Below are positions 30,480-34,981 of a stretch of DNA of 34,981 bases, piece by piece; positions within the stretch are counted from its first letter, which is position 1, and the number at the start of each line of letters is the position of its first letter. The notes beneath the pieces are model-generated. The model had not been told where the DNA came from. It did no database searches and saw only the letters and a program-made list of their open reading frames with translations. A program made the position numbers and the translations under genes. The stretch is taken from the NCBI GenBank assembly GCA_021793295.1, contig JAJYTA010000028.1, forward strand, positions 1 to 34,981. The letters run 5' to 3'. Source of the DNA: Actinomycetes bacterium. Lineage in GTDB: Bacteria > Actinomycetota > Actinomycetes > Jiangellales > Jiangellaceae.

Positions 30480-31192
30480 CGACGTCCTCGGCCGCCGACG
30501 AGGGCATAGCCGGCCGCGAGCCGCTCAGGCCGAGCACGATGCGCTTCGGCCGGCTGCTCATCGATTTCGACGCCCGGGTACTACAGCCTCGGCCGTGGAC
30601 GACGAACCAATCGCGCTGGGCAGCCAAGTTGCTGCGCTCGGTCCCCGACGGCCCGGTGCTGGAGCTGTGCGCGGGCGCCGGCCAGATCGGCCTGCTCGGG
30701 CTGGCCGACCAGGACCGCGAGCTGGTGCTCGTCGACGTCGACGAGACCGCCTGCGCCTACGCGCGTTTCAACGCCACCCGCGCCGGGCTCGCGGACCGAG
30801 TCAGTGTCCGCTGCGCCGCGGTGACCGAGGCGCTCGAGCCGCACGAGCGTTTCGCCCTCGTCATCGCCGACCCGCCGTGGGTGCCCAGCGCGGACGTCCA
30901 GCGCTACCCCGGTGACCCCGTCCACGCCATCGACGGCGGCGCCGACGGTCTGGGCATGGCGTGGGTCTGCCTCGACGTCATCGCCGACCATCTGCTGGCC
31001 GGAGGCTGTGCGCTGGTGCAACTGGGCAGCGCCGACCAGGCGGCAGCGCTGGGACACCGCCTCGACCAGATGCCGGCGTCCGGACTGACGGTGACCGACG
31101 TGCGCCGCTTCGATCCGCATGGCGCGCTGGTCCTCGTCCAACGACGCGACCAGCGCGAAACCAGTCCTACGGTCTCGCCCGCTCCGGAATGA
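30476..31192 (+). CDS. Class I SAM methyltransferase, HemK/MTQ2-PrmC type
   Basis: A 238-aa protein. Motif I is VLELCAGAGQIGLLG at 61-75, the acidic residue of motif II is in LVLVDVDETAC, and motif IV is ADPPW at 131-135. The (N/D)PP(Y/W) motif marks enzymes that methylate amide or exocyclic amino nitrogens, such as glutamines of release factors, but the N-terminal PrmC domain is absent, so the target is open. It is coupled to marR by a four-base overlap. Its last 26 bases overlap the end of the CDGSH gene on the opposite strand. Confidence 0.85.
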   Translation: MTTSSAADEGIAGREPLRPSTMRFGRLLIDFDARVLQPRPWTTNQSRWAAKLLRSVPDGPVLELCAGAGQIGLLGLADQDRELVLVDVDETACAYARFNATRAGLADRVSVRCAAVTEALEPHERFALVIADPPWVPSADVQRYPGDPVHAIDGGADGLGMAWVCLDVIADHLLAGGCALVQLGSADQAAALGHRLDQMPASGLTVTDVRRFDPHGALVLVQRRDQRETSPTVSPAPE

Positions 31193-31376
31193 CCTTGTGA
31201 GTGCCGTCGCACCACGGCTGCTTGGCTGACTTGCCGCACCGACACACCGCACTGACCGGCCGGGTGGTGCGATGCAGGCCGCCCTTGTCGTCCTCGATGA
31301 CGTGCTCGCCGCGTAGCAACAACGGGCCGCCGGGGCACAGGACCACGTCGGCGTGCTCGAACTCGTTGAGACTCAT
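31167..31376 (-). CDS. CDGSH iron-sulfur domain protein
   Basis: A 69-aa protein starting at ATG 31376, which overlaps the stop of the upstream iron-enzyme gene by four bases. The C-terminal motif VCRCGKSAKQPWCDGTHK supplies three Cys and one His for the [2Fe-2S] cluster, as in mitoNEET-type CDGSH proteins. The N-terminal part (VVLCPGGPLLLRGEHVIED) is the strand region seen in small bacterial forms. Such proteins pass electrons or clusters. Here it is probably the redox partner of the iron enzyme encoded before it. Confidence 0.92.
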   Translation of the reverse strand: MSLNEFEHADVVLCPGGPLLLRGEHVIEDDKGGLHRTTRPVSAVCRCGKSAKQPWCDGTHKVIPERARP

Positions 31377-32317
31377 GCCGACCACTCCCCGAGCATGCGC
31401 CGCGCGAACTCGTCTTCCAAGCCCAGGCAGGTCATCGCACCGAAGACGACGTCCGCTGCCAGCGACGGCGTCTCCTCCACGAGGGCTCCGCAGATGGTGC
31501 GGATGGCCAGCTGTTCGTGTACGGCGTCGGCCTCCACGTGCTCGTCGTAATAGGCGATCATCTCGCCCGGCAGGCCCAGGCGCTCCATGCCGCCGGCGAT
31601 GCGGCGCGATGGCAGCGAGCTGGTCGCCTCGAACGCCGCGAGGTGGCCGAGTGCGGCACCACGCAGCCGACGGTGCAGCCCGAGCAGACTCCAGGCGTTG
31701 TTCTGCTTGAGCACTTCCAGCGGTACGTCGTCGATGTAGGCGCCGTACTCCGAACGCAGCCCACACGCTTCGAGCCCGCGCACGAACATGTTGGAGTGCA
31801 GCCGATTCGGGTCGCCGCAGCCGTACTCGTCATACTGCAGCTCGATCACCGCAGCTTTGGGTCCGGTCGACAGTCGCGGAATCACCCAGGTCGTCGGGTC
31901 TGCTTCCTTGACGTGGTAGATCGACTTGTACCGGAGGAACTCCAGCACCTGCTCGAGATCGGCATCGCGCTGGATGAACGCGGCCACCGACACGCCGTCA
32001 TGGTTCTCGATGCACTCGGCCAGCTTGTCGGCGAACGGCTCCGGCAACGGCTCGCCTGCATACTTCGACCGAAGCTCGTCCTCGAACAGCCGCTCCAGGC
32101 TGCGCCGGAGTTCGAGCACCGTCGGATTCCACTCGACGTCGTCGTCGACGTCGTCGAAACCCCGGTACATCAGTTCGTACATCACCCAGAGGCTGATGTG
32201 CAGATCGCCGTCGTCGGTCGGGTCCAGGGCCAGGGCCGGGCGCGCGTCGACCGAGTCCGTGCGCAGCGCATCGATCAGAGCCTCACTCAGCTCTCCGCGT
32301 GCCTTGGGTGTGAACAT
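31373..32317 (-). CDS. Iron-containing redox enzyme, heme-oxygenase fold
   Basis: A 314-aa protein starting at ATG 32317 behind AAGGAG; the longer frame upstream is rejected because it runs through the promoter region. It is all-helical, with candidate metal ligands in VIELQYDEYGCGDPNRLHSN (residues 157-176) and in YYDEHVEADAVHEQLA. This matches the heme-oxygenase-like diiron/iron-containing redox enzymes (PF14518 group), which activate O2. The true reaction is unknown. The gene is coupled to the CDGSH gene, and the pair is divergent from the molybdoenzyme, which suggests a shared redox or stress role. Confidence 0.85.
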   Translation of the reverse strand: MFTPKARGELSEALIDALRTDSVDARPALALDPTDDGDLHISLWVMYELMYRGFDDVDDDVEWNPTVLELRRSLERLFEDELRSKYAGEPLPEPFADKLAECIENHDGVSVAAFIQRDADLEQVLEFLRYKSIYHVKEADPTTWVIPRLSTGPKAAVIELQYDEYGCGDPNRLHSNMFVRGLEACGLRSEYGAYIDDVPLEVLKQNNAWSLLGLHRRLRGAALGHLAAFEATSSLPSRRIAGGMERLGLPGEMIAYYDEHVEADAVHEQLAIRTICGALVEETPSLAADVVFGAMTCLGLEDEFARRMLGEWSA

Positions 32318-32425
32318 TCCGTGCTCCTTCGCTTCCCCAGTCGCCGGATGGCGTCGAGGTGACGTGTCTGTGTCTTTCCCGAACCGCGCATCGCTACACG
32401 GAGCGGTCCACGGGTTGAGCCGGCG

Positions 32426-32450: not shown

Positions 32451-32475
32451 CTCAACTGCGCGAAGGAGGGTGCCC

Positions 32476-34839
32476 ATGAACGCCGACGGCCCCGCTGACC
32501 GGATCGAGAATCCCTGGGGTGAACGCACGCCGTACGGCCGCGGCGAGGCGTGGCCGGTCCGGGTGGACACCCATTTGGCCGACGGAATCGAGCCCGGCGA
32601 GGTGGAGCGCTGGGCGGTCTCGGCGTCCTTGCTGCATTCCAACGGCGATGCCATGGACATCGCGGTCAATGAAGAGCGGATCGTGGGCGTGCGTGGCCGG
32701 TCCCAGGACCGTGTCAATCACGGCCGGCTCGACGTGAAAGATCTCTACGGCTGGCAGGCGAACTCGTCCCCGGACCGGCTGACCACGCCACTGGTTCGCC
32801 GCGACGGCGCTTTGGTGCCGACCAACTGGGACACGGCGATGTCCGCCATCGTCGGGCAGACCCGCGACCTGCTCAGTGAGCGCGGACCCAGCAGCATCTC
32901 CTTCTACACCACCGGACAACTGTTCCTCGAGGAGTACTACACCCTGGGCCTCATCGCCCACGGCGGCATCGGCACTGCGCATCTGGACGGCAACACCCGG
33001 CTGTGCACCGCGACCGCCGCGGAGTCGCTCAAGGAGTCCTTCGGCTGCGATGGCCAGCCGGGCTCGTACGCCGACATCGACCACGCCGACGTCGTGGCGC
33101 TGTTCGGGCACAACGTGGCTGAGACACAGACCGTGCTGTGGATGCGCATCCTCGACCGGCTGGCCGGCCCGGACCCGCCCAGCATCGTCTGCGTGGATCC
33201 GCGCCTGACTCCGGTGGCCCGCGCGGCCACGGTCCACCTGGCGCCCCGGCCGGGGACCAACGTCGCCCTGATGAACGCCCTGTTGCACGAGATCATCGAG
33301 AACGGCTGGTACGACGAGGCCTACGTGCAGGCGCACACGGTGGGCTTCGGCGAACTGGCGCAGACGGTGCGCGACTACCCGCCCGAGCATGCCGCGGAGA
33401 TCACCGGTGTACCCGCCGAGCGGATTCGTGCCGCGGCCCGGTTACTCGGCACGACCGAGCGGCTGGTGTCGACGGTCTTGCAGGGCTTCTATCAGTCTCA
33501 TCAAGCCACTGCCGCGGCAGTCCAGGTCAACAACGTGCACCTCATCCGCGGCATGCTCGGCCGCCCTGGCGCCGGCGTGTTGCAGATGAACGGCCAGCCG
33601 ACGGCGGAGAACACCCGCGAGGCCGGCGCGGACGGCGACCTGCCGGGCTTTCGCAACTGGTCCAACGACTCACACATCGCCGATCTCGCGCGGGTGTGGA
33701 ACCTCGACACCATGCAGATCCCGCACTACGCCCCGCCGACGCACGTCATGCAGATGATGCGCTACGCCGAAGAGGGTTCCATCCGGTTCATGTGGATCAC
33801 CGGGACGAACCCCGCGGTGTCGCTACCCGAACTGGCGCGGATCCGCTCGATCCTGGGCGACGATCGGCTGTTCGTCGTCGCGCAGGACATCTTCCACACC
33901 GAGACGTGTCAACTCGCCGACGTCGTCCTGCCGGCTGCCACCTGGGGCGAGAAGACCGGCACGTTCACCAACACCGACCGCACCGTGCACCTGTCCGAGA
34001 AAGCCGTCGAGCCTCCGGGGGACGCGCGGGCCGACCTCGACATCTTCCTCGACTTCGCTCACAGGATGGAATTCACCGACAAGGACGGCGCCCCGCTGAT
34101 CCGATGGACCGACCCGGAATCGGCGTTCGAGGCGTGGAAGGTCTGCAGCGCCGGGCGCCCGTGTGACTACACCGGGCTGTCCTACGACCGGCTGCGCGAC
34201 GGCGGCATCCAGTGGCCCTGCACCAGCACGGATTCGCCCGGGACCGAGCGGTTGTACGCCGACGGGCAGTTCTTCGCCGACCCGGACTACTGCGAGTCCT
34301 ACGGGCGCGACCTGATCACCGGCGCACCGTTCGAAGAGATCGACTATCGGGCCATGAACCCGTACGGCCGGGCGATCATCCGGGCCGCCGGGTACCAGCC
34401 GGCGCACGAGCCGCCGACCGAGGAGTACCCGTTCTCGTTGATCACCGGTCGGACCATCTTCCATTTCCACACCCGAACCAAGACCGCCCGAGCCCCCGAG
34501 CTGCAGAGCGCCGCACCGGAGGTGTGGGTCGAGATGTCTGCTGCCGATGCTGCCGACATCGGCGCCGACGACGGCGACATGGTCGAAATCACCACCGCAC
34601 GAAGCGCCGTGCAAGCGCGGTTGCGGGTCGGTGGCATCCGCGACGGCGTGGTCTTCCTGCCGTTCCACTACGGTTACTGGGACACGCCAGGCGGCTACCA
34701 GCCCGACGGCGCGGGCCGGGCGGCGAACGAACTGACGCTCACCGATTGGGATCCCCCGTCGAAACAGCCCATCTTCAAGACCGCTGCGGCCAACGTCCGG
34801 CGGGTACGAGATCGCGAAGAACGGCAGGTGCGGCCGTGA
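32476..34839 (+). CDS. Molybdopterin oxidoreductase lacking N-terminal Fe-S cysteines
   Basis: A 787-aa protein. ATG 32476 is chosen because GGAGGG lies six bases upstream; GTG 32470 is too close to it. It has the layout of formate dehydrogenase/assimilatory nitrate reductase catalytic subunits: DRVNHGRLDVKDLYGWQA, the Mo-ligand Cys177 in DGNTRLCTATAAESL, MLGRPGAGVLQMNGQPTAEN, WITGTNPAVSLPEL, and a C-terminal molydopterin-binding domain (FSLITGRTIFHFHTRTKTA). The four Cys that normally bind [4Fe-4S] are absent: residues 46-60 read WAVSASLLHSNGDAM and GRLDVKD replaces the GRLC site. No Tat signal is present, so it is cytoplasmic. Electron donor or acceptor and substrate are unknown. It overlaps the next gene by four bases. 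Confidence 0.88.
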   Translation: MNADGPADRIENPWGERTPYGRGEAWPVRVDTHLADGIEPGEVERWAVSASLLHSNGDAMDIAVNEERIVGVRGRSQDRVNHGRLDVKDLYGWQANSSPDRLTTPLVRRDGALVPTNWDTAMSAIVGQTRDLLSERGPSSISFYTTGQLFLEEYYTLGLIAHGGIGTAHLDGNTRLCTATAAESLKESFGCDGQPGSYADIDHADVVALFGHNVAETQTVLWMRILDRLAGPDPPSIVCVDPRLTPVARAATVHLAPRPGTNVALMNALLHEIIENGWYDEAYVQAHTVGFGELAQTVRDYPPEHAAEITGVPAERIRAAARLLGTTERLVSTVLQGFYQSHQATAAAVQVNNVHLIRGMLGRPGAGVLQMNGQPTAENTREAGADGDLPGFRNWSNDSHIADLARVWNLDTMQIPHYAPPTHVMQMMRYAEEGSIRFMWITGTNPAVSLPELARIRSILGDDRLFVVAQDIFHTETCQLADVVLPAATWGEKTGTFTNTDRTVHLSEKAVEPPGDARADLDIFLDFAHRMEFTDKDGAPLIRWTDPESAFEAWKVCSAGRPCDYTGLSYDRLRDGGIQWPCTSTDSPGTERLYADGQFFADPDYCESYGRDLITGAPFEEIDYRAMNPYGRAIIRAAGYQPAHEPPTEEYPFSLITGRTIFHFHTRTKTARAPELQSAAPEVWVEMSAADAADIGADDGDMVEITTARSAVQARLRVGGIRDGVVFLPFHYGYWDTPGGYQPDGAGRAANELTLTDWDPPSKQPIFKTAAANVRRVRDREERQVRP

Positions 34840-34981
34840 ACAAATTCGTCTTGTTGATCCGCCTGGTCTACCGAGCCGAGACCAAGGTGGCCAGCGACAT
34901 GCTGGCCATCGGGGAACGACACAAGACCGACCACGAGATCTACCACCTCACCCACGACTTCGCCCGCTGGTCACGACGGCA
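34836..34981 (+). CDS. Unknown small protein downstream of the molybdoenzyme (cut by window end)
   Basis: Starts at GTG 34836, overlapping the molybdoenzyme stop (GTGA), and stays open to the window edge: about 48 residues beginning MNKFVLLIRLVYRAETKVAS. The visible part is helical and charged, with several His (ERHKTDHEIYHLTHDFARW). The coupling suggests a partner or maturation protein of the molybdoenzyme. I do not recognise the family. Confidence 0.6.
   Translation, partial: MNKFVLLIRLVYRAETKVASDMLAIGERHKTDHEIYHLTHDFARWSRR

Follow-up and report, generated by a model that had tools for sequence, protein, structure and literature searches.

In Cys-ligated enzymes of the MopB (DMSO reductase) superfamily, electrons are normally taken to pass through the N-terminal iron-sulfur cluster as their port. 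A gene near the end of the window, the stretch of 34,981 nucleotides of actinobacterial DNA analyzed here, raises the question of how such an enzyme came to lose every cysteine that would hold this cluster and how it might work without them. The features concerned are listed below. Residue numbers count from ATG 32476; numbers counted from GTG 32470 are 2 higher.

32476 to 34839, forward strand: gene for a MopB molybdoenzyme without the cluster cysteines; the product has 787 aa with ATG 32476 as the start and 789 aa with GTG 32470
32464 to 32468, forward strand: ribosome-binding site GGAGG ahead of ATG 32476, read from the sequence
32620 to 32649, forward strand: SASLLHSNGD, the place where C-x2-C-x3-C once bound the [4Fe-4S] cluster; its alignment columns read S51/H54/D58
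32722 to 32742, forward strand: GRLDVKD, with the former fourth Cys (D86), the retained pterin-cluster K88 and the clade-specific D89 that replaces Gly
32722 to 32733, forward strand: GRLD, the fourth site alone
33004 to 33009, forward strand: Cys177, the Mo ligand (codon 33004 to 33006), then Thr178
34836 to 34979, forward strand: start of the partner gene, which has a 4-nt overlap with the stop of the enzyme gene and is truncated where the window ends

ATG 32476 was kept as the start because GGAGG stands at 32464 to 32468. The enzyme reading frame is intact from 32470 or 32476 through 34839, and no Tat signal is visible in the protein, as in cytoplasmic Nas. The Pfam domains Molybdopterin (PF00384, 1.6e-61) and Molydop_binding (PF01568, 3e-25), together with the Mo ligand Cys177, make the protein a member of MopB. 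Pfam gave no Molybdop_Fe4S4 match for the enzyme but does match this domain in the tested relatives with three or four cluster cysteines (3-Cys and 4-Cys forms). A NasC/Fdh-like lineage, assigned in an earlier note on this DNA, held up on comparison. Desulfovibrio NapA was the top PDB match, with FdhF of the hydrogen-dependent CO2 reductase also among the best solved relatives. The best NCBIfam match was formate dehydrogenase TIGR01591, at 430.9 bits against a cut-off of 666.25, and the nitrate reductase equivalogs NF047855 (NasC; 395.4 of 1100 bits) and NF041323 (375.7 of 1000 bits) likewise fell below their cut-offs. We assign the gene product, with high confidence, as the catalytic half of a molybdoenzyme encoded by two genes, in the assimilatory nitrate reductase/cytoplasmic formate dehydrogenase branch of the superfamily. 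It shares with NasC, NasA and NapA the overall fold, length, Cys Mo ligand, Asp192 and Arg381 columns and pterin Lys88, but it has none of their four [4Fe-4S] cysteines. FdhD and MoaA were found in the genome to which the window belongs.

The positions of the four cluster cysteines are occupied in the enzyme by S51, H54, D58 and D86. Column-by-column alignment placed S, T or A at 51, H at 54, D at 58 and G or D at 86 in all 104 aligned members of the Cys-less (0-Cys) clade, each of which also has Cys177. The loss of all four cysteines with retention of the Mo ligand, which the earlier note had read from this one gene, is thus seen in the sequence, in the alignment and in the missing Fe4S4 domain, and the homologue alignment that it proposed shows the Cys-less form to be a widespread group. 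Its reading of the fourth site as GRLD stands for the lost cysteine and not for the aspartate as a general replacement: Gly occupies this site in 65 of the 104 members and Asp in 39, so that GRLD is one of two common states. H54, D58, K88 and D89 are invariant in all 104. Full-length identity is 65 to 76% among more than 100 genomes, with the frame intact. Close relatives (55 to 76% identity) are spread across the Actinomycetota: several of the genomes belong to the family and class from which the window comes, and others to further classes. Of at least 579 confirmed relatives in the species-genome scan, the best 80 were inspected; occurrence outside the Actinomycetota was seen through a plasmid collection alone and is a lower bound.

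Chance or alignment error is excluded because relatives 57 to 64% identical hold C-x2-C-x3-C in exactly the same columns. Relocation of the cysteines was also ruled out: those of the relatives occupy identical columns, and no other N-terminal Cys is conserved among the 0-Cys members. An unselected site would drift, yet the replacement residues are invariant, and we therefore consider that the cluster site was remodeled and then fixed. Judged by this conservation, a strictly conserved arrangement of His54, Asp58 and Asp89 took over the cavity that had housed the cluster, with Lys88 still in place. The counterpart of Lys88 in NapA bridges cluster and pterin (PMC12769810), and Lys88 is perhaps retained for structure.

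The intermediate stage of this loss, missed in the earlier note, survives in living relatives. C-x2-C-x3-C with Gly at the fourth site was found in Deinococcus, Hymenobacter, Halomonas, Curtobacterium, Streptomyces BHT-5-2, Staphylococcus saprophyticus and three actinobacterial genomes, and three cysteines are visible in another frame of a broken Gloeothece copy. In these 3-Cys forms the fourth-site Gly is always followed by P-K-G, as opposed to P-K-D; D89 is present in 104/104 0-Cys rows and in 0/11 3-Cys rows. Deeper homologues (the 4-Cys set, up to 39% identity) keep all four cysteines. A tree was built without the cluster region and with the 4-Cys rows as the outgroup, which had a support of 100; the 3-Cys forms branched successively, and the 0-Cys forms were innermost. 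One 0-Cys row (L143) and an odd row (L050) were placed beside 3-Cys rows, but a single clade of all 0-Cys rows was not rejected (p-AU of 0.625, with a slightly higher likelihood). These results strongly suggest, along with the architecture assigned to the enzyme, that the [4Fe-4S] site was lost in place and stepwise, from four cysteines to three plus Gly and then to none.

Two other MopB enzymes, AioA and IdrA, use a Rieske-type partner. Their N-terminal cluster is [3Fe-4S] instead of [4Fe-4S] (PMC10100899). The 3-Cys relatives look analogous and may likewise bind [3Fe-4S]. AioA and IdrA differ in having no protein ligand to Mo (PMC10100899, PMC7331816), where Cys177 is invariant here.

The Mo pocket has a different history from the cluster site. 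Cys177-Thr178, Asp192, Gln336, Asn372 and Arg381 are found in both 3-Cys and 0-Cys forms with almost no exception, and this C-T-D-Q-N-R signature is not that of the 4-Cys relatives. Nitrate-reductase-like relatives, and NasC, NasA and NapA in particular, have Met after the Mo-Cys in place of Thr178, Met or Arg in place of Gln336, and Thr in place of Asn372. In formate dehydrogenases the residue after the Mo-Cys is His, and the pocket has the Arg of RGQNN. Columns aligned to 7qv7 show Cys-Thr and Asn372 at these places in our enzyme; despite TIGR01591 being its top NCBIfam match, the enzyme differs from FdhF, FdsA and ForC in lacking both residues as well as the cluster. Because the signature fits neither nitrate reductase nor formate dehydrogenase, the 3-Cys and 0-Cys forms constitute one enzyme family with its own pocket, a point that the earlier note did not reach. 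As far as aligned residues can tell, this pocket was unchanged during the second step of Cys loss, from three to none. Many members are annotated by NCBI simply as "nitrate reductase," a name that is unproven for the family.

The best clue to the substrate, also overlooked before, comes from a same-operon gene present in several phyla. Nine loci, which represent four phyla and include both 3-Cys and 0-Cys enzymes, have an HPP gene (PF04982) directly downstream of the enzyme-partner pair in the same orientation (L167:11811-12350, L168:11572-12126, L135, L137, L138, L141, L142, L048 and L175). The carriers are Halomonas, Gloeothece, Deinococcus taeanensis (a fragment) and, among the actinobacteria, one with a 3-Cys enzyme and five 0-Cys genomes of another class. 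In plants and cyanobacteria, proteins of the HPP family are nitrite transporters (PMC10605003, PMC4137279). Because a gene of this nitrite transporter family follows the pair in several phyla, nitrate/nitrite is our tentative choice of substrate, and the reaction would be a two-electron oxygen transfer on a small oxyanion, most likely one of these two. The pocket residues run counter to a nitrate reading, in that the Met after the Mo-Cys and the Met/Arg336 of nitrate reductases appear here as Thr and Gln. Since the genome that holds the window has no HPP gene, and none turned up close to the main actinobacterial loci, the link to nitrite may miss some members.

The gene at 34836, proposed in the earlier note as a partner, proved to be a nearly constant companion. 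A homologue lies directly downstream of the enzyme gene in 114 of 116 loci (the two without it are L145 and L172) and overlaps it in 87. Among 396 genomes of the phylum, 28 carry the enzyme, 28 the partner and 25 both (Fisher p of 4e-33); the exceptions that could be judged looked like contig ends or fragments, plus one genome (G233) truly without a downstream partner. The partner accompanies 3-Cys forms too. In Halomonas sp. KO116 it is fused to the enzyme C terminus, giving a protein of 942 aa, and because this fusion joins both proteins, the enzyme and its partner probably form a permanent complex. A second apparent fusion (L047) was discarded, being best explained by a contig frameshift that puts the last ~50 enzyme residues in another frame.

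In the window's genome, the full partner gene is present on another contig (C213), one end of which matches the end of the window at 96% identity. The repeated segment is the last 623 bases of the window (34359 to 34981), and its recurrence on C213 points to strain variation or to a duplicated segment in the assembly.

The partner had no convincing Pfam or NCBIfam family match, and the DUF1641 (ForE) profile matched none of 36 members; one Deinococcus partner gave a weak DUF892 match. The AlphaFold model of an ortholog (L098; pLDDT of 88.4) is a ferritin-like four-helix bundle, which resembles bacterioferritins and related proteins with Z of 17 to 18 and rmsd of 1.9 to 2.9 over 129 to 145 residues (YciE, Z of 17.2). 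On this modeled structure, the partner would be a ferritin-like four-helix bundle. The likeness to bacterioferritin and YciE/DUF892 is one of fold, whereas their di-iron ligands (E, ExxH, E, ExxH) are not matched: no ExxH pair is conserved across the partner family alignment, nor are any other cofactor ligands.

How would electrons reach the Mo in such a complex? We lean modestly toward an explanation that combines stepwise loss, a dedicated partner, direct electron entry and oxyanion chemistry. A soluble or quinone donor, docked at or near the enzyme-partner interface, would pass its electrons straight to the Mo-pterin centre, with no cluster relay. That this happens without any metal at the old site is an evenly balanced proposition. 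A similar arrangement is found in ForCE of Bacillus subtilis, a two-gene Mo enzyme in which ForE, a small partner without hemes or Fe-S clusters, provides a quinone site (PMC8808070). ForC differs in retaining five Fe-S clusters, and ForE belongs to DUF1641 and is unrelated by sequence to the partner described here, which has no Pfam family. In a more doubtful version, the ferritin-fold subunit itself would feed or drain electrons directly at the Mo-pterin, possibly via a metal or hydrogen-bond site at His54/Asp58/Asp89, and would so replace the proximal [4Fe-4S] cluster.

Somewhat less probable again is that the partner is an assembly factor, a cofactor-insertion chaperone, while NAD(P)H, a thiol or a flavin protein passes its electrons straight to the enzyme. 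Cluster-free Ser-ligated enzymes, namely biotin sulfoxide reductase and DorA/TorA with their own donors, would be models for such direct donors, and the lack of conserved cofactor ligands in the partner is consistent with a chaperone. NarG and DmsA depend on dedicated all-helical chaperones, and their Fe-S cluster has to be in place before the Mo cofactor is inserted (PMC10609526). Because those enzymes need the cluster first, the Cys-less family must load its Mo cofactor in another way, for which it may rely on the His-Asp-Asp arrangement or on the partner; an enzyme with no cluster could thus require a new chaperone. However, the presence of the partner beside 3-Cys forms and its fusion in Halomonas fit a permanent subunit better, and the best matches of its ferritin-like model include no chaperone of the NarJ/TorD type.

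The earlier note held that electron transfer must bypass the usual cluster. This follows if the net reaction is a redox reaction, but it would not apply to a redox-neutral one, such as oxygen transfer between two substrates in the manner of pyrogallol-phloroglucinol transhydroxylase. Because such a reaction needs no relay, the cluster would have been free to be lost, and a Mo pocket that stayed strongly constrained and identical in 3-Cys and 0-Cys forms while the relay vanished agrees with this. We regard it as improbable, since neither the HPP nor the plasmid contexts hint at such a substrate pair and since the 3-Cys forms retain a possible cluster that the enzyme would not need.

Equally improbable is a mononuclear metal, newly acquired in the old cavity with His54, Asp58 and Asp89 as its ligands, that carries electrons or has a structural role. 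All three residues are invariant in 104/104 members, with D89 confined to 0-Cys forms, and a gene for a DUF326 four-helix copper-binding protein occurs in the retrieved neighborhood of 23/115 loci, often divergent and within ~1 kb (upstream of the enzyme in L076, L060, L069, L070, L089, L094, L099, L130, L131, L040 and others). Against a metal site, the window's own genome has no DUF326 gene, and H54 and D58 may do no more than form hydrogen bonds and occupy the cavity; the enzyme model from AlphaFold (pLDDT of 66) is too poor for the geometry of H54, D58 and D89 or of the complex. Finally, although the window stops inside the partner gene and its end recurs on another contig, pseudogene decay or an assembly or frame artifact is close to inconceivable, given the intact frame, the full-length conservation in more than 100 genomes and the invariant replacement residues, and the earlier note was right to reject decay.

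DorA, TorA, BisC and PgtL also lack an N-terminal Fe-S cluster, a state deduced for our enzyme from its missing cysteines. They have a Ser ligand to Mo and lie in a different branch (PMC10100899), while our enzyme is Cys ligated, and its cluster loss is independent of theirs. Surveys name cluster loss for Ser-ligated enzymes such as DorA (PMC10100899). Two surveys had the cluster-binding motif among their criteria for retaining sequences (PMC7331816, PMC10100899), and the Cys-less group may have been filtered out of both for this reason. Our literature search, which covered papers outside subscription, found no description of a cluster-free Cys-ligated family. A large group in which the cluster is lost and the pocket kept makes the rules for electron ports and cofactor insertion testable across 4-Cys, 3-Cys and 0-Cys relatives; if electrons do enter directly, these living forms offer a natural series in which the purpose of the cluster can be tested. 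The unproven "nitrate reductase" name carries over into what is predicted about nitrogen metabolism in several phyla, for plasmids as well as chromosomes.

Other neighbors were considered as redox partners. On the reverse strand of the window, a gene for a Haem_oxygenas_2-type iron-containing redox enzyme (31373 to 32320) is followed by an overlapping CDGSH gene (31167 to 31394). The CDGSH protein, suggested earlier as an electron route, is encoded beside the enzyme in 0/92 loci and the haem-oxygenase-like protein in 1/92, and both were rejected. No third gene next to the pair is conserved in the main clade, where shadow ORFs add noise. The family is often plasmid borne (NZ_AP026561.1, NZ_AP026563.1, NZ_CP083456.1 and others), with some copies among stress-type genes. 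The enzyme copies on Gloeothece and Vreelandella plasmids (L168:8750-11400 and L176:5001-7435) are broken by frameshifts or stops. At another locus (L051:2106-2669, reverse strand), a 188-aa ORF matches just the N-terminal ~50 residues of the enzyme and is probably the remnant of a lost copy.
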